Source: Planctomycetota bacterium
GTDB lineage: Bacteria > Planctomycetota > Phycisphaerae > SM23-33
NCBI GenBank assembly: GCA_026693065.1
Contig: JAPLNA010000237.1
Span: 1-33,640 of the forward strand
Reading direction: 5' to 3'
DNA: 33,640 nt
The position numbers and the translations under genes are program-made. This document shows positions 8,681 through 30,185 of this stretch, piece after piece (position 1 is the stretch's first letter; each line of letters opens with the position of its first letter). Under the pieces are notes generated by a model. The model saw nothing but the letters and a program-made list of their open reading frames with translations. It was not told the origin of the DNA and did no database searches.

Positions 8681-8985
8681 AGAGGAGACAGCGGCCTACG
8701 GCCGGGGGAGAGGGGGAAAGAGAGTTCGTCCACGAATTATCGGGCGTGGCCTCGCACCTTCGGTTCTCGGCCGCAACCAAACCAGCCGTTAGTCCGCCTT
8801 CGGCGGATAGCCAGGGGGAAACGAGATCCCGTCCCAAAGAACGGAATTCCATACGTCGCGCCCAAGGTGGCCGCAGGCGGGTTCGTGGACGACCTTCCCG
8901 CTTCTGGCTTCTTCTTCCCGCTTCTTTTGAATCCATGCAATCCGCGTAATCCGTGGACTGAACGGCCTTTTCCCGGCGCGGGGGT
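8681..8985. repeat. Intergenic mosaic repeat: inverted A module followed by B module
   Basis: No gene seen. Bases 8728-8880 are the reverse complement of module A (found forward at 12152-12278 and, shortened, at 15070-15155), recognised by CTTCGGTTCTCGGCCGCAAC, GGGGGAAACGAGATCCCGT and CAAAGAACGGAATTCCATAC. Bases 8881-8960 are module B (second copy 12299-12375), recognised by GTTCGTGGACGACC and TGAATCCATGCAATCCGC. A small hairpin CCGCCTTCGGCGG lies near 8797. Confidence 0.75.
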
Positions 8986-10599
8986 TCAGGGGGCGTCGGA
9001 GGGGGGGAGGAGGTGGAGGGAGGCCAGCCATTGGAGGGATTGGCGTTGCCAGGCGTCCCAGGAGGGGCCGGCGTAGCCGTTGAGGCCGTGGCCGCCGGAG
9101 GGCAGTTCGAGGTACTTGGCGGGGACTTTGTGGGCCTGGAGGGCACGGAAGAACAGGAGGCTGTTGTCGGGGGAGACGAGGGTGTCGTCCTTGGCGTGGG
9201 CGAGGAAGGCCGGCGGGGTCTGGGCGGTGACCTGTTTTTCGTTGGAGAACAGATCGACGGCCTGGGGCTTGGGGGCCGGGCCAAGCAGGTTGTCCTTCGA
9301 GCCCTGGTGGGTCTTTGGGCCCATGGAGATCACGGGGTAGACCAGGACGGCGAAGTCGGGCCGGCAGCTCGTGCGGTCGAGTGGGTCGGCGGCGGCGGGG
9401 GCGCCGGCGTCGAAGTGGGTGGCGGCGGTGGAGGCCAGGTGCCCCCCGGCCGAGAAGCCCATGATGCCGACGCGGGCGGGGTCGCCCCCCCACTGCCCGG
9501 CCCGGGAGCGTGCCAGGCGGAGGGCGCGCTGGGCGTCCAGCAGCGGCACGGCCGAGCGCCCGCCGGGCAGGCGGTACTCCAGCACGACGCCGATGACGCC
9601 GTGGCCGTTGAGCCAACGGGCGATGCCGTGGCCCTCCGGCTCGGTCACCAGGACGCCGTACCCGCCGCCGGGGCAGATGACGACGACGGCCCCGTTGGCC
9701 TTGGCCGGGCGGTGGACGGTGACGAAGGCGTTGGCGCCGGGCTGGAACTGGCCCTCGCCGACGGGGGCGCGGCCGCCCCAGAGGGCGATCCGCTCGGGCT
9801 GGTGCGGGGGGGCGTCTTTCGCGCGGGCGATGGCGAAGTCGACAAGCTCCTGGCACTGGAACCAGCCGGTCCACATGTCGTGCCCCCGGCCGGGCATGAC
9901 CAGGAGCGTCATGGCCCCGCCGAGCTGGCGGTATCGCTTGGCCAGTTCGCGGGAGTTCTTCTCGAGGGGCACGACGGTGTCGCCGTCGCCGTGGATGTGG
10001 AAGATCGGCACGCGGGCCTTCGCCAGGGGGGCGAGGCGGTCGATGGGGTTGTGCTCGGTGAGGCGGGCGTGGAGCTGGGCCTCGGAGAGGTCGAACGCTC
10101 CGCACGCCGTCGCCAGCCCGGGCCAACTGGCCAGGTCGCACACGGGGTATATCCCCGCGACGCCGGAGAGGCAGTCGGGGTGTTCAGCCGCCCAGTTGTA
10201 GAGCATGAGTCCGCCGCGGCTGCGGGCGAGGAGGCAGGGCTTTTTCGCCATGCCGCGTTTGGCGGTCATTTCTTCGTAGAACGCGGTGTAGGCCGCCCGC
10301 CCCTTGGGGCTGCCGTAGGACTCGCCCACGTCCACGCCGGCGAGGGCGACGCCGGCGTCGAGGAACTTCTGGATCATCCACTTTTCTTCCGGCCCGGGCA
10401 GGCCCGGGAGGGTCGGGGCGTACCAGACCCACGGCATGGCGGCCTGGCCGGGGGCGGGCTTGGGGGCGATGAGGAATGCCTCGCCCCCCGTCACCTTAAA
10501 CACGTCACCGGGCATGGGCAGTTCCTTTGCGAGCAGTACGGACGCCGCCACGGCCGGCACGGCGAACGCCAACGCGACGCGAATCCACAGTCCGGGCAT
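8986..10599 (-). CDS. Secreted two-domain alpha/beta hydrolase (esterase, possibly acetyl-xylan type)
   Basis: A 537-residue protein with a signal peptide (about 1-24, LLAKE after a hydrophobic stretch) and two alpha/beta-hydrolase domains in tandem. Domain 1 (about 35-265) has nucleophile S127 in ARSRGGLMLYNW, D207 in HGDGDTVVP and H240 in PGRGH. Domain 2 (about 290-530) has the oxyanion motif CPGGGYG, S383 in GFSAGGH, D471 or D472 in AKDDTLV and H504 in SGGHG, resembling acetyl-esterase/xylan-esterase families. Two esterase steps on a decorated polysaccharide are likely; the substrate is inferred. The start at 10599 (MPGLWIRV) is preceded by AAGGAGCCAGCC, an excellent ribosome binding site; the frame is open further upstream but without support. 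It is divergent from the 10819 gene. Domain 1 is homologous to the single-domain protein at 15114-16019. Confidence 0.88.
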   Translation of the reverse strand: MPGLWIRVALAFAVPAVAASVLLAKELPMPGDVFKVTGGEAFLIAPKPAPGQAAMPWVWYAPTLPGLPGPEEKWMIQKFLDAGVALAGVDVGESYGSPKGRAAYTAFYEEMTAKRGMAKKPCLLARSRGGLMLYNWAAEHPDCLSGVAGIYPVCDLASWPGLATACGAFDLSEAQLHARLTEHNPIDRLAPLAKARVPIFHIHGDGDTVVPLEKNSRELAKRYRQLGGAMTLLVMPGRGHDMWTGWFQCQELVDFAIARAKDAPPHQPERIALWGGRAPVGEGQFQPGANAFVTVHRPAKANGAVVVICPGGGYGVLVTEPEGHGIARWLNGHGVIGVVLEYRLPGGRSAVPLLDAQRALRLARSRAGQWGGDPARVGIMGFSAGGHLASTAATHFDAGAPAAADPLDRTSCRPDFAVLVYPVISMGPKTHQGSKDNLLGPAPKPQAVDLFSNEKQVTAQTPPAFLAHAKDDTLVSPDNSLLFFRALQAHKVPAKYLELPSGGHGLNGYAGPSWDAWQRQSLQWLASLHLLPPSDAP

Positions 10600-10818
10600 G
10601 GCTGGCTCCTTCATCGCCCGGCGTGTCGGGGGCAAACTCGCCCGGGCGACGCCGCCGGCATCGGGCTTGAGTGTACCTCGCTGGAGGGCAGGGGAAAAGG
10701 GTCCGTGGACAACTGTTCCTTCGTCCCTCGCGGTGTTACAATCAAAGAGTGTCGGCTGTGGCGGTCGGCGCCGTGTCGGCGGCATGTCGTATGTGGAGTT
10801 CTCGATAAGGAGACGGGC
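10600..10818. promoter_or_regulatory. Divergent intergenic promoter region
   Basis: 219 bp between two divergent genes for secreted proteins. A plus-strand TACAAT at 10737-10742 is a plausible -10 for the 10819 gene, but no good -35 partner is visible. Nothing comparably clear was found on the minus strand. Confidence 0.35.
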
Positions 10819-11778
10819 ATGAAGGCATCGCCGCATCGCGGGGCCGTCCGGGCCGTGGCCGCGGTCTGGGCTCTACTGGTTCTCACGGCCACGGGCGCCC
10901 CGAAGCCCGCCTCCGCTCCGGCGCCGATCGCGTACGAGGGCGGTAAGGAGATCGCCCGGCTGGCGAACCCGGCCATTACCGAGAGCAGCGGGCTGGCCGC
11001 CAGCCGTCTGGCCGAGGGCGTCTTCTGGACCCACAACGACTCGGGCGACTCGCCCAGGCTCTTTGCCTTCAATCGCAAGGGCGAGGACCTGGGCGCGTAC
11101 CCGGTTCACGGCGCGACGGCCGTCGACTGGGAAGACATGGCCGCCTTTTCCCTCGGCAAGCAGCACTACCTGCTGATCGCGGACGTGGGCGACAACTTCG
11201 CCGCCCGGAAGTCCTGCACGCTGTACTTCCTCGCCGAGCCGCTCGTGAAGGCCAGGCCCGCCAAACCCGCTGCCCTGCCCGTGGCGATCCGAATGGACTT
11301 CAGCTACGAGGACGGGCCTCGCAACTGCGAGTCCGCCGCCGTCGACCCCGTGCGAAAAGAGATCCTCCTGGTCAGCAAGACCGGCGGCAATTCCTGCAAG
11401 GCCTACCTCCTGCCCCTGCCCCGTCAGAACCTCGTCAAGAACGCCGTGGCCCGGGCCGTCGGCACGCTGACGATCCCCACCGCGACGGCCATGGACGTCG
11501 CCCCCGACGGGCTCCGCGCGATCGTGCTGACCTACGGCGACGCCTACGAATACTCCCGCGCCGCGACCGAAGACTGGAAGGCCGCCTTCGCCCGGGCCCC
11601 CAGGAAGATCGCGATGCCCCCCCGCGCCCAGGGAGAGTCGATCTGCTACGGCCTGGACGGCCGAACGCTCTACCTGACGAGCGAACAGGCCCCCTCCCCG
11701 CTTCTCCAGGTCTCCCCGGCCACTCCGAAGCCCGCGGAGAACTCCCCCGCGACCGCCCCCTCCTCGATCGGGGACTGA
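10819..11778 (+). CDS. Secreted beta-propeller-like protein of unknown function
   Basis: A 319-residue protein with a signal peptide (MKASPHRGAVRAV.. then a hydrophobic stretch ending TATGAPKPA). The body is repetitive beta-strand sequence typical of a beta-propeller: ITESSGLAAS, FWTHNDSGDSPRLFAFN, DWEDMAAFSLGKQHYLLIADVGDN, ESAAVDPVRKEILLVSK, TAMDVAPDGLRAIVLTYGDAY, ESICYGLDGRTLYLTSE. The acidic loops (HNDSGD, DVGDN) could bind calcium. Such proteins are often annotated as WD40-like or esterase-like propellers without a proven activity. ATG at 10819 is preceded by AAGGAGACGGGC. The C-terminus is Pro/Ala-rich. Divergent from the two-domain hydrolase, possibly co-regulated. Confidence 0.8.
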   Translation: MKASPHRGAVRAVAAVWALLVLTATGAPKPASAPAPIAYEGGKEIARLANPAITESSGLAASRLAEGVFWTHNDSGDSPRLFAFNRKGEDLGAYPVHGATAVDWEDMAAFSLGKQHYLLIADVGDNFAARKSCTLYFLAEPLVKARPAKPAALPVAIRMDFSYEDGPRNCESAAVDPVRKEILLVSKTGGNSCKAYLLPLPRQNLVKNAVARAVGTLTIPTATAMDVAPDGLRAIVLTYGDAYEYSRAATEDWKAAFARAPRKIAMPPRAQGESICYGLDGRTLYLTSEQAPSPLLQVSPATPKPAENSPATAPSSIGD

Positions 11779-11969
11779 GGGCTGCCGACCTCGCTTCCTC
11801 GCGTCAACAAGACCATTCCCGGCATCCGGGGGGGGGAAGCGGCGGGCGGATTACACGAAATACTGAGGGAAAGAACTGGAAGGTTTGTCCGTTTCTCTTC
11901 CCCCCTTCGTACCACTGACGTCCAGAATCGCGAATTCTCGTGCAGATTTTCAGGCCCAGACTCCAACAA

Positions 11970-12129
11970 CGGGAAACATGGGGAGAGCGTGCGGACGCTC
12001 TGGCCAAACCCCTCTTCCCGGCCCACACACCCCCAAGAAAGAACCGGATAGACACGTCGCGCGGGGATCGGGCGTGGCGTTGTTTGGGCGTGTGTGGGCC
12101 GGGGAAGGGGGTCCGGGGGAATCCGCCTT
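11970..12129 (+). repeat. Intergenic repeat C, copy 1 (left of dinB)
   Basis: About 160 bases beginning AACATGGGGAGAGCGTGCGG, with an AGAGCGT/ACGCTCT hairpin at 11984-12001, then CGGCCCACACACC, ATCGGGCGTGGCGTTGTT and CGTGTGTGGGCCGGGGA. It matches the reverse complement of 13595-13745 along its length, and partly 14985-15040 in direct orientation. Confidence 0.8.
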
Positions 12130-12279
12130 CGGCGGACCGGGTCCCCCGCGAGCGGCCACCGTGTGCGCGACGTTTGGAATGCCGTTCTTTGGCAGTGGAA
12201 CCCGTTTCCCCCGGCTACCGGTTTCTTTGGTTGCGGCCGAAAACCGAAGGTTCGAGGCAGCGCCGGGTAATTCGTGTAA

Positions 12280-12299
12280 CCTGCCTGCCGGCAGGCAGG
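12280..12299. repeat. Perfect 20-base palindrome inserted in the repeat mosaic
   Basis: CCTGCCTGCCGGCAGGCAGG is fully self-complementary. The A copy at 8728 lacks it at the matching point, so it looks like a separate small insertion. A related hairpin is CCCGCC-GTA-GGCGGG at 12352-12366, inserted in module B copy 2 but absent from copy 1. Confidence 0.8.
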
Positions 12300-12413
12300 T
12301 TCGTGGACGGACCTCCCGCTTCTTCTGTTTCTTCTGAATCCATGTAATCCGCCCGCCGTAGGCGGGTCGTGGACTCTCTCCCCCTTCCTCCCCCGCCCGG
12401 GTATCCTTCCGGC

Positions 12414-13589
12414 ATGGCCCGATGGATTCTGCACGTGGACATGGACGAGTTTTTCGCCGCCGTCGAACGGCTGGACAATCCGGCGTTGGCGGGCAAGGCG
12501 ATTCTCGTGGGCGCCTCGGCCCGGGAGCGTGGGGTCGTCGCGACGGCCAGCTATGAGGCCCGGAAGTTCGGCTGCCACTCGGCCATGCCGACGGGGGAGG
12601 CCCTGCGGCTGTGCCCGCACGCGGTGCTCGTGCCCCCGCGGCACGGGCGGTATGAAGAGGTGGGCCTGCAGGTCCGGGAGATCCTCGAGCGGTTCAGCCC
12701 GGCCATCGAGCCACTGGGGCTGGACGAGGCGTTTCTCGATGTCACGGGCAGCGGGCGGCTGTTCGGCCCGGCGCCCGACATCGCCGCGAACATCAAGGCC
12801 ACCATCCGCCGCGAGCTGAAGCTGACCGCCAGCGTGGGGGTGGCCCCCAACAAGTTCCTGGCCAAGCTCGCCAGCGACCTCCGCAAGCCCGACGCCCTCA
12901 TGGTCATCACGCCCGAGACGGTGCAGGCGACGCTCGATCCGCTGCCCGTGCGGAAGATCTGGGGGGTGGGCCCGGCCGCCGAGGCCCAACTGGCCGCCAT
13001 GGGCATCCGAACCATCGCCCAGTTGCGGGTGGCCGGCGAGGCGACGATGGAACGCCGCTTCGGCCAGAGCGGGCTTCACCTGCTCCAGCTCGCCCGCGGG
13101 GAAGACGCCCGCCCCGTCGTCATGGACGAGCGGGCCAAGAGCATCAGCCAGGAGGTCACCTTCGCGACTGACCTGGCCGACCTGCGCGAACTGCGGGCCG
13201 TCCTGCTGCGACAGACCGAGCAGGTCGCCCGCCGCCTCCGCCGCTCGGGGCTGCGCGCCAAGACCGTGAGCCTCAAGCTCCGCAGCGGCGACTTCGTCAC
13301 CCGCACGCGTTCGCACACGCTGGAGGAGCCCACTGACGTGACGGACGAGTTGTGGTCGGTCACGGGAATGTTATTCGATCGCTGGTGGGCCGCCGAGGCC
13401 TGCCCCCTCCGCCTGATCGGCATGGGCGTCTCCCAGTTGACCGCCGGCGGCCAGTTGACCCTCCTGCCTCCCCCCCACCGCGAGAAACGCCAGCGGCTCG
13501 ACAAAGCCCTGGACGCCCTGGCCGACCGCTTCGGCCCCACCGCCCCCCGCCGGGGCGGCTCGCCCCGCCAAGACCGCGAAGGCGACTGA
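12414..13589 (+). CDS. dinB: DNA polymerase IV (Y-family translesion polymerase)
   Basis: A 391-residue protein, an ordinary length for DinB. Palm-domain catalytic acids are D9 (HVDMDEFFAAVE) and D104-E105 (GLDEAFLDV); the aromatic steric gate is F14. Nucleotide-binding residues lie in ASYEARKFG; SVGVAPNKFLAKLASD is the conserved thumb-side motif; the helix-hairpin-helix reads KIWGVGP; and the little-finger domain runs from about 240 to 345. QLTLL at 347-351 resembles the beta-clamp binding motif. It copies damaged DNA without proofreading. The start MARWILHVDMDEFF matches the family; a GTG 45 bases upstream would add residues unlike the family. There is no LexA-like site that I can recognise. 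It is flanked by inverted copies of repeat C. Confidence 0.97.
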   Translation: MARWILHVDMDEFFAAVERLDNPALAGKAILVGASARERGVVATASYEARKFGCHSAMPTGEALRLCPHAVLVPPRHGRYEEVGLQVREILERFSPAIEPLGLDEAFLDVTGSGRLFGPAPDIAANIKATIRRELKLTASVGVAPNKFLAKLASDLRKPDALMVITPETVQATLDPLPVRKIWGVGPAAEAQLAAMGIRTIAQLRVAGEATMERRFGQSGLHLLQLARGEDARPVVMDERAKSISQEVTFATDLADLRELRAVLLRQTEQVARRLRRSGLRAKTVSLKLRSGDFVTRTRSHTLEEPTDVTDELWSVTGMLFDRWWAAEACPLRLIGMGVSQLTAGGQLTLLPPPHREKRQRLDKALDALADRFGPTAPRRGGSPRQDREGD

Positions 13590-13594
13590 CGGCG

Positions 13595-13745
13595 GCGGTT
13601 CCCCCGAACCCCCATCCCCGGCCCACACACGCCGGAACAACGCCACGCCCGATCCGCGCGCGAGTTCCCCTTCCTGTTCCGTGGGGGGGAGTGTGGGCCG
13701 GCCAGAGGGGTTCGGGGAGAGCGTCCGCACGCTCTCCCCATGTTC
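13595..13745 (-). repeat. Intergenic repeat C, copy 2 (right of dinB, inverted)
   Basis: The reverse complement matches 11970-12129 over about 150 bases with scattered differences, sharing GATCGGGCGTGGCGTTGTT and GTGTGTGGGCCGGGGA. It fills the gap between dinB and the convergent PEP-CTERM gene. Confidence 0.8.
13714..13739. terminator. Perfect hairpin in repeat C, possible bidirectional terminator
   Basis: GGGGAGAGCGT, loop CCGC, ACGCTCTCCCC: an 11-bp perfect stem. It lies between the convergent 3' ends of dinB and the PEP-CTERM gene, 19 bases after the latter's stop. There is no T-run, so intrinsic termination is uncertain. The same hairpin recurs at 14985-15008 and, weaker, at 11984-12001, each on the 3' side of a gene. 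Confidence 0.5.
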
Positions 13746-13758
13746 CCGGTTGCTGGGG

Positions 13759-14850
13759 TCAGGCCTTCGCCCTCCGCTTGAGCAGCAGCCCGGCGGCGCC
13801 GCCCAGGAGGGTGAAGAGAGTGGCCGGTTCGGGCACGTTGGCCAGGGGATACGTGCCGGTGGGTCCGCCGTCGAGCCCGAAATTGTCCTTCAGCATGCCG
13901 AAGTCTTCCGGGCCGATCTCGCCGTCGTCGTTGGCGTCGCCCAGCGTCCAGCTCTCGTGGTGGCCGAAAGGCAGGCCGTCCAGGCCGAAACCGTCCTTCA
14001 GGATGCCGAAGTCTTCCGGGCCGACCTCGCCATCCTTGTTGAAGTCGCCGTCCAGGTAGTTGGGCCAGGCCGGGGCGGTCACGATCTCCAGGTCCGACGT
14101 CCTGAACGCGCCGGACTCGAAGGTGAAGATCCGGGCCTCGTCCAGGTCGCCGATGTAGTGGGCGCCGCCCATGGGGGCGATGGACATCATGGCGTTATCG
14201 CCGTCGGTAAGCCCGGCCGGGGTGACGGTGGAGGAGGCGCCGGACGCCGCGCCGTTGACGTAGAAGGTGGTCACGCCGTCGGCGCGAACGACCGCCAGGT
14301 GCACCCACTCGTTCACGGCCGCCGCATAGGGGGCGCCGACCTGGGATTGCGTGCTCAAGCCCGTGCCGATCATGCCGCGGAACTGGCTTGCGATGCAGAC
14401 GATATTGATCCCCCAGTTGACGCGGTTCCAAGGCGAGTTGCTCGTGCCGACGCCGAACACGGATTCGGCGCCGCTGTCGTCGGCGCTCGTCCGGCGTGCC
14501 CAGATCTCGACGCCCACGTTATCGATGGCCGTCACGGGGTTGGCCAGGTCGCCGAAGCCGTTCGTGCCGGAGAAGTAGTAGTACTTCGTGCTCGTCGGCC
14601 AGGCCGCCGGCCCGTCGCCCGTCTGGATGTAGTTGGCAATGTCCGTGGCGTTCTGGCCCCAGTTGTTGGGCAGGCCGCGGTTGTTGCCGCTGCTGTCAAT
14701 GGGGCATACGTAGCTGGGGTACTGACCGCCCGTGTTGAAGAACCCGTCCTCGCCGAGGCGATAGAGAGCCTGGGCTGTCACCGTCGCCCGCGCCGACGCC
14801 GCCGTCGCCAATACGGCCAGCCCTGCCGCCACAAAATCCCTGATGTGCAT
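13759..14850 (-). CDS. Secreted LamG-like, dockerin-repeat, PEP-CTERM protein
   Basis: A 363-residue protein. A signal peptide (1-22, ending SARA) precedes a LamG/concanavalin-like domain (about 28-255: VGVEIWARR, EWVHLAVVRADGVTTFYVNG, YIGDLDEARIF). Two dockerin-type calcium repeats follow: LDGDFNKDGEVGPEDFGIL (from 266) and LGDANDDGEIGPEDFGML (from 303), nearly identical to each other. The C-terminus is a PEP-CTERM sorting signal: VPEPATL (339-345), a hydrophobic helix, then KRRAKA. Such proteins are exported and then processed by an exosortase, which is not in this window. The start at 14850 has AAGGAGACGGGCC upstream. A perfect TATAAT lies at 14921-14926. It probably displays a carbohydrate-binding module on the cell surface or extracellular matrix. 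Confidence 0.93.
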   Translation of the reverse strand: MHIRDFVAAGLAVLATAASARATVTAQALYRLGEDGFFNTGGQYPSYVCPIDSSGNNRGLPNNWGQNATDIANYIQTGDGPAAWPTSTKYYYFSGTNGFGDLANPVTAIDNVGVEIWARRTSADDSGAESVFGVGTSNSPWNRVNWGINIVCIASQFRGMIGTGLSTQSQVGAPYAAAVNEWVHLAVVRADGVTTFYVNGAASGASSTVTPAGLTDGDNAMMSIAPMGGAHYIGDLDEARIFTFESGAFRTSDLEIVTAPAWPNYLDGDFNKDGEVGPEDFGILKDGFGLDGLPFGHHESWTLGDANDDGEIGPEDFGMLKDNFGLDGGPTGTYPLANVPEPATLFTLLGGAAGLLLKRRAKA

Positions 14851-14911
14851 GGCCCGTCTCCTTCGACCAGCGATATGGTGAACGTCCCGCCGCCGGCGCA
14901 GCGCCGACGAT

Positions 14912-14957
14912 CCGAAATCTATTATACCCCAGGGCCCATGTGTCCAGCGGATTTCGG
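14912..14957 (-). promoter_or_regulatory. Promoter of the PEP-CTERM gene bracketed by an inverted repeat
   Basis: On the minus strand TATAAT (14921-14926) is a perfect -10, about 70 bases before the start codon. A -35 is less clear: TGGACA is present but only 14 bases away. The half-sites CCGAAATC (14912-14919) and GATTTCGG (14950-14957) flank the promoter symmetrically, which would suit a repressor operator. Confidence 0.55.
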
Positions 14958-14984
14958 GCCTTTCTTTTATTTCGCGGCCGGAGT

Positions 14985-15040
14985 GGGAGAGCGTGCGGAC
15001 GCTCTCCCCAAACCCCTCTGACCGGCCCACACCCCCCCGG
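14985..15040 (+). repeat. Intergenic repeat C, copy 3 (partial), followed by A copy 3
   Basis: GGGAGAGCGT (14985-14994) and ACGCTCTCCC (14999-15008) form a perfect 10-bp stem, followed by CAAACCCCTCT and CCGGCCCACAC as in copy 1. Module A copy 3 follows at about 15070-15155 and runs into the 3' end of the hydrolase gene. Confidence 0.75.
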
Positions 15041-15069
15041 CCGTAATCGGTAAGCCCCCCGCACCGCGG

Positions 15070-15155
15070 GAGTGGATCCCGTTTCCCCCTGGCTACCGGC
15101 TACGGGCTACCGGCTACTTTGGTTCCGGCCGAGAACCGAGGGTTCGAGGCGCCGC
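15070..15155 (+). repeat. Intergenic repeat A, copy 3 (overlaps a coding 3' end)
   Basis: It shares GATCCCGTTTCCCCCTGGCT, TTTGGTTCCGGCCGAGAACC and GGTTCGAGGC with the other A copies. A short CCGGCTACGGGCTACCGGCTAC tract is reiterated inside. The stop codon of the minus-strand hydrolase (15114-15116) and its last dozen or so codons lie within the repeat. Confidence 0.75.
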
Positions 15156-16019
15156 CGTGTGCTTGAGAATGAACTCCATGATCGGCGTCGGGTCGTCCAG
15201 GCCGTGGGGGTGATGCTGGAAGCCTTTCCGCACGATCACCTGGATCTCGCCGCCGAGCTTCTTGTAACGCTCGTGGAGGACGGCGGTGTTTTCCAGGTAG
15301 GGGACGACTTCGTCGGCGTCGCCGGCCAGGTGGATGATGGGAACCTTCGCCGCGGCCAGGGGGGCGAGGTTGTCGACGGGGTTCTTGGTGTAGGCCATGG
15401 CCTCGGCCTCGTTCTTGAAGTGATAGTCCTGGATGAGCTTCGCCCAGTCGCCGGGGCTGCCCGGGCCCTTGCCCTTGCCCCCGGGCCAGCTCTTGAAGTC
15501 GCAGACGGGGTTGTCGCCGTAGAGGACCGAGACGCGGTCGGGATGGGCGGCGGCCCAGTTGTAGATGTACAGCCCGCCGCGGCTGAGGCCTTCCATCGCC
15601 GGCCGGGGACTGAACCCGTGCTTGCTCACCAGGAGGGTGTAGAACTCGTCCCACTTGGCCATCGCGTCGGGGCAGCCGAAGGTGTTGCCCACCTCGATGT
15701 AGGCCAGGTGGAAGCCCTTGCCCAGCAGGGCCAGGTCCAACTCGGGGCGATGGTCGAAGAATTCCGCCCGCCAGATCCAGGGCCTTCCCGCGGCCGGCTG
15801 CTTGGGGGCGACCACCAGGCACTTGAGCCCGGCGGCGGTGAACGTGTGCATCTCGAAGCCGTGGTAGTCGCTGACGGAGCCCGGCAGGGGCTGGGCCGGC
15901 TGGGTGGCGGGGGCGGTCATGGGGTCTCCTGCATGGCACAGTGACGACAACAACCCGGCCCCGACCACGGCGGCCAGCGCTCCGCAGACAACCGCCAGGG
16001 GCATTCGTTGATTACGCAT
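15114..16019 (-). CDS. Secreted alpha/beta hydrolase, single domain
   Basis: A 301-residue protein with a signal peptide (1-30, ending CHA). The hydrolase domain has S146 in GLSRGGLYIYNWAAAHPD, a second conserved block YGDNPVCDFKSWPGG, D236 in GDADEVVP and a histidine-rich segment FQHHPHG supplying the catalytic His. The blocks around the nucleophile closely match domain 1 of the protein at 8986-10599, so the two are paralogues. Probably an esterase or peptidase-like hydrolase; the substrate is unknown. The start at 16019 has GAGGAGAACCCG upstream. The last residues (TLGSRPEPK) are encoded by intergenic repeat A, so the original C-terminus has probably been replaced. A promoter lies at 16076-16103. 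Confidence 0.88.
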   Translation of the reverse strand: MRNQRMPLAVVCGALAAVVGAGLLSSLCHAGDPMTAPATQPAQPLPGSVSDYHGFEMHTFTAAGLKCLVVAPKQPAAGRPWIWRAEFFDHRPELDLALLGKGFHLAYIEVGNTFGCPDAMAKWDEFYTLLVSKHGFSPRPAMEGLSRGGLYIYNWAAAHPDRVSVLYGDNPVCDFKSWPGGKGKGPGSPGDWAKLIQDYHFKNEAEAMAYTKNPVDNLAPLAAAKVPIIHLAGDADEVVPYLENTAVLHERYKKLGGEIQVIVRKGFQHHPHGLDDPTPIMEFILKHTAAPRTLGSRPEPK

Positions 16020-16610: not shown

Positions 16611-16673
16611 CGCCCTGATTGCGCAGGCCCTGCCGATAGGCAGGCCGGAGCCGTGATCCGAATCGAGGATCCC

Positions 16674-18245
16674 ATGAAGCCGATCGCATTCGAAGATCTC
16701 ACGCCGGGGGGGTTGCTCAAGGACCGGGCCGAGCTGGCGCTGCGGCATCTGCAGGAACCCTACTTCCAGTGGGAGAGCATCTCGCAGGTCAACTTCGAGC
16801 CGTTTCCGGGCGACGCCGTCGGGCGGGCCATAAACGGCCTGACGCTGCTGTCGCGGGCGCTGCATCGGCCGGCGCCGGCGAATCTGCGGGAGATTATGAC
16901 CCGCCTGGGGACCCTGGCCAACGAGGACGGATACCTGGGCCCGAAGCTGCCGGAGGCCCGCGCCAATGAGGACGTGCTGGCCGCGCACAACGGGTATGCG
17001 TGCGGCCTGGCGGAGTACGTTTTGTGGACGGCGGACCCGGCCGCCCGGGAGGCCCTGCACCGCGTGGTGGAGAACCTGTTCGTCCCCGTCCGCGACGCGA
17101 TCGCCTGTTATCGCGAGGATTCGCAGGCGGCCGTCGAGGCGAATTGGCGTCTGTCCACGCTCGACGTGGGGCAGTTGTTCCTGGCGATGGACGGAATGAC
17201 GCGGGCGTATGAGCTGGCGCCCGTGCCGGGATTGAAGGCCACGATCGAAACCGCCATCGCCCGCTATCACACGCTGGACCTGGTCGGCATCGGGGCGCAG
17301 ACGCACGCCATGCTCTCGTGCACGATCGGCATTCTCCGCTGGCACGAGCTCCAGGGCCGGGCGGAGGACCTCGCCTTCGCCGAGGCCCTCTACGGGCAAT
17401 ACCGCGCCCTGGCCATGACGGAGACGTACGAGAACTACAACTGGTTCAATCGGCCGGAGTGGACGGAGGCCTGTGCGGTCATCGACTCGTTCATCCTGGC
17501 CGTGAATCTCTGGCGGGTCACGGGGAAGGCGGGCTACCTGGAAGACGCCCACCTGATCCTCTTCAACGGCCTGCTGCCCGGGCAACTGCCCAACGGCGGC
17601 TTCGGCACGGGCCCCTGCGTCGGGCCCGCCACGGGAGTCTGCCAGACCAAGGTACACACCGAGGCGCCGTTCTGCTGCTCGATGCGCGGCGGCGAAGGGC
17701 TGGCCCGGGCCATCCAATTCACCTACTTCCTGGACCGCGACACGGTCGTCCTGCCTTTCTACACTGACAACACGGCCGTGCTGCGATTTCCGGACGGGCC
17801 CTGCACGATCCGCCAGCAGACCGATTACCCCCACGGCGGCCGGGTGCGACTGGAGGTTCTCGACAGCCGCGTGCAAACGGAGAAGACGCTCCGGTTCTTC
17901 CTGCCCCCCTGGGCCCTCCGGCACAGTCTTCAGGTGCGCGTGAACGGGGCAAAGACCGAGCCCCGCGTGGCCGATTCCTTCGCCGAGATCTCGCTGCGTC
18001 CGGCCGCCGGCACGGTGATCGAGATCGTCTTTCAGCAGGAGCGGGGCCCGCGCGCGACGCTGCACCCAGAGCAGGCCCCCGGGGCCTTCCGCTGTTTCGC
18101 CGGCCCGCTGCTGCTGGGTTCGCCGACCGAAAACGCCGACGGGCCTCTCGTGCCGATCCTGGACCTTCTCGCCCCCGACGGCCGCGGGGGCGAGCCCTGC
18201 GTCCTCTTCCAGAAACACAATCAACCCCCGGCCGGTATCGCCTGA
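16674..18245 (+). CDS. GH127/DUF1680-like glycoside hydrolase, second member
   Basis: A 523-residue member of the DUF1680 family, clearly diverged from the one at 2321-4048. The expected cysteine-nucleophile site is present: E265 and C267 in RPEWTEACAVID, and C334-C335 in APFCCSMRGG. The (alpha/alpha)6 barrel covers about 1-350 (including NGLTLLSRAL and AHNGYACGLAEYVLW), followed by beta domains with LRFFLPPWA. There is no signal peptide. Activity on beta-L-arabinofuranosides is inferred from the family only. ATG at 16674 is preceded by GAGGATCCC; a GTG at 16653 is a possible longer start. It lies 63 bp after higA and 29 bp before the GH95-like gene, probably one transcription unit. Confidence 0.85.
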   Translation: MKPIAFEDLTPGGLLKDRAELALRHLQEPYFQWESISQVNFEPFPGDAVGRAINGLTLLSRALHRPAPANLREIMTRLGTLANEDGYLGPKLPEARANEDVLAAHNGYACGLAEYVLWTADPAAREALHRVVENLFVPVRDAIACYREDSQAAVEANWRLSTLDVGQLFLAMDGMTRAYELAPVPGLKATIETAIARYHTLDLVGIGAQTHAMLSCTIGILRWHELQGRAEDLAFAEALYGQYRALAMTETYENYNWFNRPEWTEACAVIDSFILAVNLWRVTGKAGYLEDAHLILFNGLLPGQLPNGGFGTGPCVGPATGVCQTKVHTEAPFCCSMRGGEGLARAIQFTYFLDRDTVVLPFYTDNTAVLRFPDGPCTIRQQTDYPHGGRVRLEVLDSRVQTEKTLRFFLPPWALRHSLQVRVNGAKTEPRVADSFAEISLRPAAGTVIEIVFQQERGPRATLHPEQAPGAFRCFAGPLLLGSPTENADGPLVPILDLLAPDGRGGEPCVLFQKHNQPPAGIA

Positions 18246-26806: not shown

Positions 26807-27066
26807 CTCTGATCCTGCAGGGCCATCGACGGGAACGGCCAGAATCGCCCGGCGACCGTTTGGGAAAGAACGCCTTGAGGAACGCCGGGAGCATCCGTAG
26901 AATGGCCACATCCGATCTCCGTGCCGGGCGACGCGGCCGAATCGTGCGGGAAAGGCGGGCGATGGGCGATGAGCGTGAGTGCTGAAGAATCGAGGCAGGC
27001 GGAAGTGGCGGGAGGGCAGTTCCCGGACATGGCAGGAAAGGCCGGGCTTTCCGGGGAGGTTGACGC
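26807..27066 (+). promoter_or_regulatory. Promoter-leader module 1 upstream of the 27067 gene
   Basis: TTGAGG (26875-26880), a 17-base spacer and TAGAAT (26898-26903) form a good sigma70-type promoter. From 26871 to about 27019 the sequence is a near copy of 29825-29977, including the leader. The transcript would have a leader of about 155 bases. The first half is much better conserved than the second. No gene seen in the gap. Confidence 0.7.
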
Positions 27067-29745
27067 ATGCTAGCACGATCGATTCGGTTCCTTATCCTGG
27101 CCGCGTGCGTGGCCGGTGGTTGGGCGTTTGGGGAGCAGGCGGCCCCGGCCAGTAGGCCGCTGTCTCTGGAGCAGGAACTTCGACAGTACTACGAGCAAGG
27201 CGACTCGCCCGCGTGGAAAGCGGCGGTGGACCAACTTCGGCGGGAAGGCCAGGAAGGGGAAGAAGCCGCCCAGTATCTCCGTTCCCTGCTGGCCCGGGCG
27301 CTCAAGGACCAGTTGTCCGGTGCGGCCCCGTGGCGGGCTACCCCGTTCTGGGGGTCCAGCGGCGAGAACCCCGCCGACCGGCTGCGCGAGGCCGTCGCGG
27401 AAGCCCTTGGCGAGGCTGGCCCCTTGGTCGCAGCCCTGCCGGTGTATGAGTGGTTCCTTCGCGAGGAGCCCAGATCGGACCGCCAGGCGAAGTTGGCCAA
27501 GGTGGCGGCGCAGGTCAAGACGCCCGCCGGCGAGCAGGTCTTGCGGGGGCTGATCTCGCCGGCCCACCCCAACAGCGCGGTTCTGCGGGAGGCCCTCCAG
27601 GAGGCGGCGCGGCGGAAACTGGCGTTGCCGGCCGGGGTGCTGGGTCCGCTTTGTCAGCATCACCGCAAGGAGATTCGCCAGGCCGCCCGAAAAGCCGCCC
27701 AGGCCGCCGGATTGCCCGAGGAGAAGCCCTTCGACCAAGCGGCGGCGGTCAAGTCGCCGGCGGTGCAAGCTCTGATGGAGAAACTCTCGGCCCTGGTCCT
27801 GGAAGTCCCGCCGGCCCAGGCCCCGTTCGTCGTCGTCACCGTTAGCTGGTCTAACCAGAAGCAGGAAGGAAACAGGGAGATCCGGGGTTGGCTCGTGAAG
27901 GAGACGGCGGAGGACTACACGGTGGCCACCCCCTTTGGGCGGACAGAGACGATCCTCAAACAGGGGGGACAGGAGGATCGGGCGTTCACGGCCAAGGCCC
28001 AGACGATCGATGTGGCCCAGGAGGTCGCGCGGGTTGCGAAGATCCACTCCGAGGGCGACAAGGAGTTCGGCCTGTCGGAACGCGGTGGGCTGACAGGCCA
28101 GTTCGAGGGTCGCGGGGCGAGCCTGTATGAGATCCTTCTGGCCCACTGGCTCTACAAGACCGGACGGCTGGCGGCGGCGGGAGAGATTCTGTTTCCGGCC
28201 CTTGAGTCGCTCTATCGGGACGAGGACCTGCTGGCCCTGGTGCGGGAGAGGATGGGAACGCGCCTGGGGTACGACATGCTGGTGGCCTTCGTGGGAGACC
28301 GGGACTACCAGAAGACGTTGCGGATCGCCCGGCTGATGACCACGCAGTTCCAGGGGGTGCCCCTCTGCCAGTACGCCGAAGAACTGGCCCGCCAGTTGCC
28401 TCGCCGGGCCGACGACTTCAAGGCCCTGGCCCTGCCCACGCCCCAGCAGTGGCAGGAGATGAAGAAGAAGATGTCCCGCCCGCAGCAGATCCGCTTCCTC
28501 TGCGACCGCCTGCGGCTGCTCAACTGCTTTCAACTCGGCCAGCCCGGCGGGGTTTCGTTGAGTTACCCGCAGTATGCCGAGCCGGGCGGCCTGTCCGAAG
28601 ACGCCGCCTGGGGTGGGCGCCTCGGCAAGACGCTGCTCATCAATCCCTACGTCGAGTTGACGGGAGAGAACTGGTTCCAGACGAAGAAGGAGGAGGCCAG
28701 CCCTGGCCTGCATCTGGCGGTGGCGGATATTCCGGAACTGACGGGCTACCTCAAAGAGGACTGGTTCATCCTGGCCGTTTCGTTCTGGCGCGACTTCCAC
28801 AGCGCCCGTACGCTGTTGAACACGAGACGGATCGTCTGCGACCTCATCAACAGCGCCGCCGGGCAGGATCTCTGCATGGATCGGGTCCTGGCAGAAATGA
28901 CGCCGGCACAGCTCCAGCAGGAGATCGAGAAGGTCAACGCCTGGGCAGCCGGAAACAAGGGGCTCTCCCGCGAGCAGTTGTTGATCCAGGCCCTCGAGCA
29001 GAACCTCCGCGGGAACCATGGGTGGTATTCTGCGCGAGAGCAGGCCGGCGAACTCATCGAACTCAAGGCCGCCCAGGCCATACCTGTCATTGTTAAATAC
29101 CTCGACGAGAAGGGAATCGACGAGTTCGATGTAGCGGACATCCTGCGGGTCTGCCGGCGGCTGGACCCGAAGGCCGCCCGGGCCGTGGCGGTCGCCCGTA
29201 CCGGCAGCGACAAACGGGGGATCCGCATCCAGGCGGGTCTGCTGCTGATGGCCGCCGGCGATGTGGCCGCCGGACGCACCGTGGTTGCCGAAGCGATCCA
29301 GGACGGCGACCTGTTCAACGTGCTCTCAAGTTACGTGGTGCAGGCGGTCGAGGAACTTCTCAAGGAAGGATCGGAGCCTTCGCGCGAGGTGGCGGCCAGG
29401 TTGTTCTGCGACGACGGCGTCGCTGAACTGGACAGCCAGGAGCGACACGCCATCGTGCGGATGGTCCTGGCGGCCGGCATTACCACGCCCTACGGTTTCT
29501 ATGAGCGGCTCCTAAGCAACAGGGGCAACCGCCTCGCCCACACCGGCTATGGGCAGCGGGTGGCTGACGTGTTCGCCGACGAACTGATCGACCTCTTCGG
29601 CGACAGCGACCCGGCCCTGAAGGCGATTGCCGAAAAGGCCCCCAAGCGATCTGACCAACGTCTGGCGGCCGTGGACGGTTGGCTCAAGGCCCGGATCGCC
29701 GCGGTGGCCACCCGTCCGGCCCCCGCCTCCAGGCCGGACAAATAG
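27067..29745 (+). CDS. Large secreted alpha-helical repeat protein, function unknown
   Basis: An 892-residue protein with a signal peptide (about 1-22, ending WAFG). The sequence is mostly alpha-helical with irregular HEAT/TPR-like repeats (LREAVAEALGEAG, VLREALQEAARRK, IRQAARKAAQAAG). A beta-rich insert (about 255-310: VVVTVSWSNQKQEG, IRGWLVKETAEDYTVATPFG) resembles the SH3-like domain at the start of the protease-HEAT protein. No catalytic motif recognised. ATG at 27067 has GGGGAGGTTGACGC upstream, a good ribosome binding site. It has its own promoter-leader module. It could be a scaffold or adaptor acting with the exported protease upstream, which is inference from neighbourhood and shared domain style. 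Confidence 0.8.
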   Translation: MLARSIRFLILAACVAGGWAFGEQAAPASRPLSLEQELRQYYEQGDSPAWKAAVDQLRREGQEGEEAAQYLRSLLARALKDQLSGAAPWRATPFWGSSGENPADRLREAVAEALGEAGPLVAALPVYEWFLREEPRSDRQAKLAKVAAQVKTPAGEQVLRGLISPAHPNSAVLREALQEAARRKLALPAGVLGPLCQHHRKEIRQAARKAAQAAGLPEEKPFDQAAAVKSPAVQALMEKLSALVLEVPPAQAPFVVVTVSWSNQKQEGNREIRGWLVKETAEDYTVATPFGRTETILKQGGQEDRAFTAKAQTIDVAQEVARVAKIHSEGDKEFGLSERGGLTGQFEGRGASLYEILLAHWLYKTGRLAAAGEILFPALESLYRDEDLLALVRERMGTRLGYDMLVAFVGDRDYQKTLRIARLMTTQFQGVPLCQYAEELARQLPRRADDFKALALPTPQQWQEMKKKMSRPQQIRFLCDRLRLLNCFQLGQPGGVSLSYPQYAEPGGLSEDAAWGGRLGKTLLINPYVELTGENWFQTKKEEASPGLHLAVADIPELTGYLKEDWFILAVSFWRDFHSARTLLNTRRIVCDLINSAAGQDLCMDRVLAEMTPAQLQQEIEKVNAWAAGNKGLSREQLLIQALEQNLRGNHGWYSAREQAGELIELKAAQAIPVIVKYLDEKGIDEFDVADILRVCRRLDPKAARAVAVARTGSDKRGIRIQAGLLLMAAGDVAAGRTVVAEAIQDGDLFNVLSSYVVQAVEELLKEGSEPSREVAARLFCDDGVAELDSQERHAIVRMVLAAGITTPYGFYERLLSNRGNRLAHTGYGQRVADVFADELIDLFGDSDPALKAIAEKAPKRSDQRLAAVDGWLKARIAAVATRPAPASRPDK

Positions 29746-30185
29746 CCCGGCGCCCGCCAATCGGCTCAGACAGCCGGGGGCGTCGACGCGGTGCCTCCCG
29801 AAACGCCGCCCGCCCGGCGACAATCGCCTTGAGGAACGCCGGGAGCGGCCGTAGAATGGCCGCATCCGATCCTCCGTGCCGGGCGACGAGGCCGGAATCC
29901 TGCGGGAAAGGCGGGCGATGGGCGATGAGCGTGCGTGTGGAAGAAGCGCCGACGACCGGATTGGCGGGAGGGGGCAGGCTCAGGAAACGCTTGAAGCGGC
30001 CCGGCGGCGACAGATAATCAGAGATCAGATGCCCACGGCGGTCGTGGGCAGTGCCATATGGGAAATCCCGGTCTGGCACCTCGGAAAGGCGGGATGCCAC
30101 TGGTCGGTATGTGGTCCTCCCTCTGTTTTTCTTGGCCACGCCGCCGGATTCCAGCGTAGGAATGTCGGAGAGAGTACTGAGATAG
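29746..30185 (+). promoter_or_regulatory. Promoter-leader module 2 upstream of the EpsI-like gene
   Basis: TTGAGG (29829-29834), a 17-base spacer and TAGAAT (29852-29857). The unit 29825-29977 repeats 26871-27019; over its first 110 bases the two differ at only about seven substitutions and two single-base indels. Further on, GCCCACG-GCGGT-CGTGGGC (30031-30049) is a perfect 7-bp hairpin. The leader to the start at 30186 is about 320 bases. GC content falls after about 30050. A frame open across the leader is not conserved between the copies because of the indels, so I do not call a gene. Confidence 0.7.

Follow-up and report, generated by a model that had tools for sequence, protein, structure and literature searches.

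A worn MITE family as a probable mobile promoter before unrelated genes in a Phycisphaerae genome

Results

The window analysed here, a stretch of 33,640 nucleotides on contig C237 of a Planctomycetota bacterium (Phycisphaerae; SM23-33), carries two genes, A and B, each preceded by a copy of the same repeat (Table 1). A search of 247 further genomes of the class yielded no homologue of gene A. The paralogue of gene B on contig C372 directly follows a frame that we judged by eye to be exosortase-like. A plus-strand ORF at 16653-18245 of the window (530 aa) had been considered as a paralogue of gene A, which proved wrong: it is GH127-like, with GH127 domains. Elsewhere in the window, at 8731-15156, palindromic repeats (GGGAGAGCGTGCGGACGCTCTCCCC...) of a second dispersed family flank ORFs in direct and inverted orientation, and a minus-strand ORF (13867-14049) contains two direct repeats of 75 nt, 108 nt apart, possibly calcium-binding or dockerin-like coding repeats.

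Table 1. Features of the two repeat copies and the genes that follow them (positions in the window)
Feature	Position	Strand	Basis or remark
Copy A of the MITE, recognisable part (promoter, leader, right arm)	26871..27019	+	Covariance-model match 26871-26974; BLAST similarity to other copies
Copy A, sigma-70-like promoter TTGAGG-17-TAGAAT (predicted)	26875..26903	+	Scan for sigma-70-like pairs
Copy A, antisense remnant of transposase N-terminus (..DVAILRMLPAFLKAFFPKRS..)	26850..26915	-	Profile of 16 foreign transposase N-termini
Copy A, leader ORF MSVSAEES...	26969..27073	+	Stop overlaps gene A start (ATGCTAG)
Copy A, decayed terminal inverted repeat of parent insertion sequence	27001..27019	+	12/19 match at predicted place; joint test over copies
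Gene A, 892 aa	27067..29745	+	Signal peptide-like N-terminus; no Pfam match
Copy B of the MITE, recognisable part	29825..29977	+	Covariance-model match 29825-29930
Copy B, sigma-70-like promoter TTGAGG-17-TAGAAT (predicted)	29829..29857	+	Scan for sigma-70-like pairs
Copy B, antisense remnant of transposase N-terminus (..SDAAILRPLPAFLKAIVAGRAA)	29808..29869	-	Profile of foreign transposase N-termini
Copy B, decayed terminal inverted repeat	29957..29975	+	11/19 at predicted place; significant only jointly with other copies
Gene B, 291 aa	30186..31061	+	C372 paralogue 42% identical; orthologues in 29 family genomes

The two copies are ~87% identical with few indels, and the BLAST E-value of ~1e-44 places their similarity beyond chance, in agreement with the preliminary description, which had reported them as near copies sharing TTGAGG-17-TAGAAT. 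The -35 hexamer TTGAGG matches the consensus at four of six positions. A scan of the region for sigma-70-like pairs returned three against 0.2 expected in shuffles, two of them being the promoters of copies A and B. Transcription is predicted to start near 29864 in copy B and, judging from the spacing, near 26910 in copy A. A further promoter-like pair, TTGAAG-16-GATAAT, is located 3' of copy B at 29991-30018, closer to gene B. The preliminary statement that indels break any frame is correct for plus-strand sequence preceding the leader, but it overlooked an antisense transposase-N-terminus frame and a short leader ORF. The 3' ends given there for the two segments, 27019 and 29977, coincide with a decayed terminal inverted repeat.

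The expectation of further copies was borne out when the genome (5.68 Mb, 441 contigs) was searched at the DNA level and then with a covariance model: exactly 16 copies were recovered at E<=1.2e-5, before mostly unrelated genes, the next candidate having E=0.8. Eight are on contig C71, two each on C237 (the window) and C232, and one each on C324, C79, C328 and C390. Fourteen of the 16 lie directly upstream of a gene reading in the same direction; the gene downstream of C71_45670 is doubtful, and the remaining, strongly decayed copy on C390 faces the end of an opposite gene. The copies are 85-95% identical to one another, so they are fairly recent, and subsets of them have upstream flanks in common. 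The C71 copies form an array (C71:33763-45820; L031:3763-15820) of eight within 12 kb, all in one direction and before different, mostly low-GC frames, for which independent insertions do not account; GC is 0.56-0.62 over much of the array and about 0.65-0.69 alongside. In the family, 35 genomes were searched, of which two, G006 and G001, contain faint matches to the element and the others none. Across 397 genomes of the class one more match appeared, in G342; it falls within repetitive DNA and was put down to chance. A plasmid search gave no match, nor did pattern scans of GTDB genome and viral collections; these collections possibly lack the genome studied here.

The downstream genes encode HEAT-repeat proteins, an LRR protein, a Sel1 lipoprotein, the N-terminus of a glycoside hydrolase of family 2 and a number of unknown proteins. 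Many of the products have the N-terminus of a lipoprotein or a signal peptide, the latter recognised by eye. Outside the HEAT and LRR groups these proteins share no homology; a simple tandem duplication of gene and promoter is ruled out, as the downstream proteins are unrelated. Third-position GC of most downstream genes is below that of their neighbours. The element was absent upstream of all fetched paralogues and orthologues of two of the downstream genes. On C71, a 591-aa gene (L031:13768-15543) matches parts of two genes of a cluster on C290 (961-aa and 437-aa frames), and it looks like a chimera or fusion of these parts.

The faint matches in G006 and G001 gave a key to the origin of the repeat, since the matching DNA encodes, on the opposite strand, a transposase N-terminus (...VGILRLILAFLRAFFTRPAALAAENVMLRQQLIV...). 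Other genomes hold complete relatives (341-349 aa), which belong to the rve_3 integrase-core proteins (PF13683) and have sub-cut-off similarity to IS3 and IS481 models. We built a profile (HMM) from 16 transposase N-termini of other genomes, leaving out G006 and G001, and compared it with 3157 frames from 156 kb of the genome carrying the repeat; the top eight were antisense frames of the element (e.g. VAILRLLPAFLKAIVAGRA). What had been described as a promoter plus leader is therefore a transposase start read backwards: the opposite strand of the repeat carries ~20 codons from the beginning of an rve_3 (IS3/IS481-like) transposase gene. The parental transposase N-terminus was not found in the same genome at E<=0.01 (the assembly is 93% complete).

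The ends of the element could be recognised with the help of relatives. At locus L095 (G004:C186), about 30 N-terminal codons are joined to a transposase C-terminus (GGLHH*YTRAA) in an internally deleted copy bounded by TGTCTATCCCGAAAACTCC and GGAGTTTTCGGTATGGACA, with inverted repeats matching at 19/19 positions at both ends; this internally deleted rve_3 insertion sequence, found in a related genus, is itself likely to be a MITE. G048 holds a complete element (L083), which terminates in GGAGTTTTCGGTAGGGACA and has the same ends as the family. Scanning 156 kb of the genome studied here gave two instances of the left repeat TGTCCCTCCCGAGAACTCC (18/19) and no others; they stand at -74 and -73 of two element copies, and a third copy shows a weaker version at -58. 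The right repeat occupies +133..+151, with an offset in copies whose known indels displace it; over nine copies taken jointly, 104/171 positions agree, where the null distribution has a mean of 52.6 (sd 8.6) and, among 253 shifts, a maximum of 84. The leader was at first suspected to have lost 47 nt compared with G001, an idea dropped when the end turned up at +133..+151 in both. None of the copies has both inverted repeats well preserved, the MITE ends being recognisable at the level of the family, and no clear target-site duplication was seen among copies with one readable end; no copy has both ends intact. The element is short (about 225 bp between its ends) and present in 16 copies, with ~20 transposase codons left and no transposase gene. 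Antisense transposase codons between terminal inverted repeat remnants at about -74 and +151 mark it as a decayed MITE that arose from an insertion sequence by internal deletion.

The element is conserved unevenly, its promoter, leader and Shine-Dalgarno/ATG part being far better preserved than its arms. Identity is 0.94-0.98 at the upstream end of the promoter and 0.85-0.93 through the -10 and the early leader, drops to 0.71 in a variable nine-base stretch, returns to 0.92-0.98 up to the Shine-Dalgarno-like GGGAAAGGCGGG and falls beyond it to about 0.45. By position, it is 0.85-0.98 at +1..+60 and +71..+90 and 0.42-0.65 at +101..+150; in the left flank it is 0.34-0.50. Conservation of the promoter hexamers was not significantly better than that of the spacer (Fisher p=0.16). 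The 3' junction with the gene varies from copy to copy (+37, +62, +92, +103, +115 and beyond), and the promoter is always kept; in C232_18466, whose -35 and spacer differ, the leader is the same and TATAAT is found equally far from it. A leader ORF starts after the Shine-Dalgarno-like motif, and in eight of nine copies it either continues in frame into the gene or stops <=10 nt from the gene start, against 3.1 expected (P about 1e-4, with gene starts chosen by ourselves and a plain letter-shuffle null).

Discussion

Overall, we consider it probable (roughly 70%) that a worn MITE family spread to 16 sites and was domesticated as a mobile promoter for unrelated genes. The pattern of conservation and the joining of leader ORFs to genes favour, at the sequence level, a domesticated promoter with a translation start, and the element probably supplies both, ready-made, to genes unrelated to one another. 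In the scenario that we propose, internal deletion of an rve_3-type insertion sequence would have produced a MITE that retained the end of the insertion sequence, some 20 transposase codons and the flank 5' of the transposase gene. Point changes specific to the lineage might then have turned these codons, read outward in the antisense direction, into the sigma-70-like promoter, after which the MITE would have been copied by transposition to at least 16 sites, presumably aided by a transposase no longer present. Copies that came to lie upstream of a gene and in line with it would have been transcribed to the benefit of that gene and retained as promoter, 5' leader and Shine-Dalgarno/ATG, while their arms decayed. 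The suggestion of a mobile promoter cassette, put forward in the preliminary description, fits these data well: genes mostly unrelated to each other follow the 16 copies, and the ends of an insertion sequence can be recognised on either side of the unit.

A less likely but quite conceivable alternative is that the family decayed with no present function, its middle being conserved by recent copying or gene conversion and its placement reflecting intergenic insertion and growth of the array. The recency of the copies, the upstream flanks common to subsets, the capacity of the C71 array to homogenise through recombination and the lack of special constraint on the hexamers all suit such a scenario. 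It has more difficulty with the sharp change of conservation inside the ancestral element, with 14 of 16 copies leading into a gene of the same direction while the clear exception is strongly decayed, with leader ORFs joined to genes above chance, and with the in-register -10 that C232_18466 kept despite its different -35. Another candidate, which we regard as unlikely, concerns the promoter itself: it might be an IS10-like antisense RNA (RNA-OUT) promoter, ancestral to the insertion-sequence family and inherited by the copies. An antisense promoter over a transposase start follows the same logic as in IS10, and G004 also has TTGAGG-17-GATAAT; nevertheless, nearly all of 28 transposase loci are not promoter-like at the homologous antisense place, where only L095 (G004) and L103 reach 9/12 matches. 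Such near-absence indicates that the promoter was probably born in this lineage and is not a case of IS10-like antisense control.

The two remaining explanations appear weaker still. The preliminary description had also proposed an RNA or protein-binding element, and a structured leader, riboswitch-like or bound by an sRNA, that controls a regulon of downstream genes could find some encouragement in the variable 9-nt stretch between TGCC and GGCC, a possible hairpin loop within a conserved leader. We nonetheless hold it to be highly improbable: four of six leaders, among them the two of the window (z = +1.3 and +1.5), are less stable than the shuffle average (z +0.8 to +1.5), while the fifth has z = -0.9 and the sixth, a foreign relative, -1.8; no compensatory pair was present in 15 sequences, where 500/500 shuffles reach the observed scores; RNAalifold was negative, and no Rfam match lay above threshold for the element. 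One hairpin seemed to show compensation in G006, and it was rejected, its pairing being broken in G001. For a protein-binding element serving a shared regulon we found no positive evidence; a shared regulon is still imaginable because one promoter is common to all copies. Least credible of all is an integron-like array of gene cassettes with the repeat as recombination site, despite the unrelated one-direction genes, the similar spacers between them and the low GC of large parts of the C71 array: there is no tyrosine recombinase on C71, C237, C232, C324, C79 or C328, the repeat, which is transposase-derived, stands before genes and joins them at a variable 3' junction, and transposon ends contradict such an origin.

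If the family is indeed a domesticated mobile promoter, its copies amount to 16 natural replicates for measuring how new genes adopt such promoters and start codons, and related genera would offer readable intermediates on the way from antisense transposase codons to a promoter and to its copying before many genes. It is tempting to go further and to suppose, quite speculatively, that a transposon-derived expression cassette of promoter, leader, ribosome-binding site and start codon has acted as a landing pad on which duplicated, chimeric or new genes repeatedly became expressed. Were this doubtful idea true, the C71 array, in which eight copies front eight different, mostly low-GC gene frames, would be a nursery of new genes, largely for secreted proteins.

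Several known systems resemble the element. Near-identical promoters upstream of non-homologous genes within one genome were reportedly described by Matus-Garcia et al. in 2012 (cited in PMC9208149) as putative mobile promoters, or promoter propagation. The same pattern is found here, one promoter standing before non-homologous genes, with the difference that it is tied to a vehicle that can be named, a MITE with insertion-sequence ends. Bacterial MITEs that carry promoters are known, such as the Correia elements (NEMIS/CREE) of Neisseria, MITEAba12, QMITE1, SonMITE_1 and BrickBuilt (PMC10969869), and ORFs of MITEs have been found fused to host genes (PMC2229807). Like them, the present element is short and non-autonomous, has inverted-repeat ends and a sigma-70-like promoter and lies upstream of genes; unlike them, it goes back to a different parent insertion sequence and has a different sequence, counts only 16 copies, draws its promoter from antisense transposase codons and gives no sign of current mobility. 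Many MITEs form long stem-loops, whereas the leader here does not. Insertion sequences also possess outward-directed promoters (PMC9208149, PMC9330008), and the RNA-OUT promoter of IS10 lies inside one end, antisense to the transposase start (PMC5006887). The element shares this outward, antisense arrangement inside one end, but its parent transposase gene is gone and its promoter is not conserved among relatives. We conclude that it is a new, previously undescribed family of a known kind, the promoter-bearing MITE, which is unusual among such elements in its antisense-transposase-derived promoter, its joined leader ORF and its eight-copy array.
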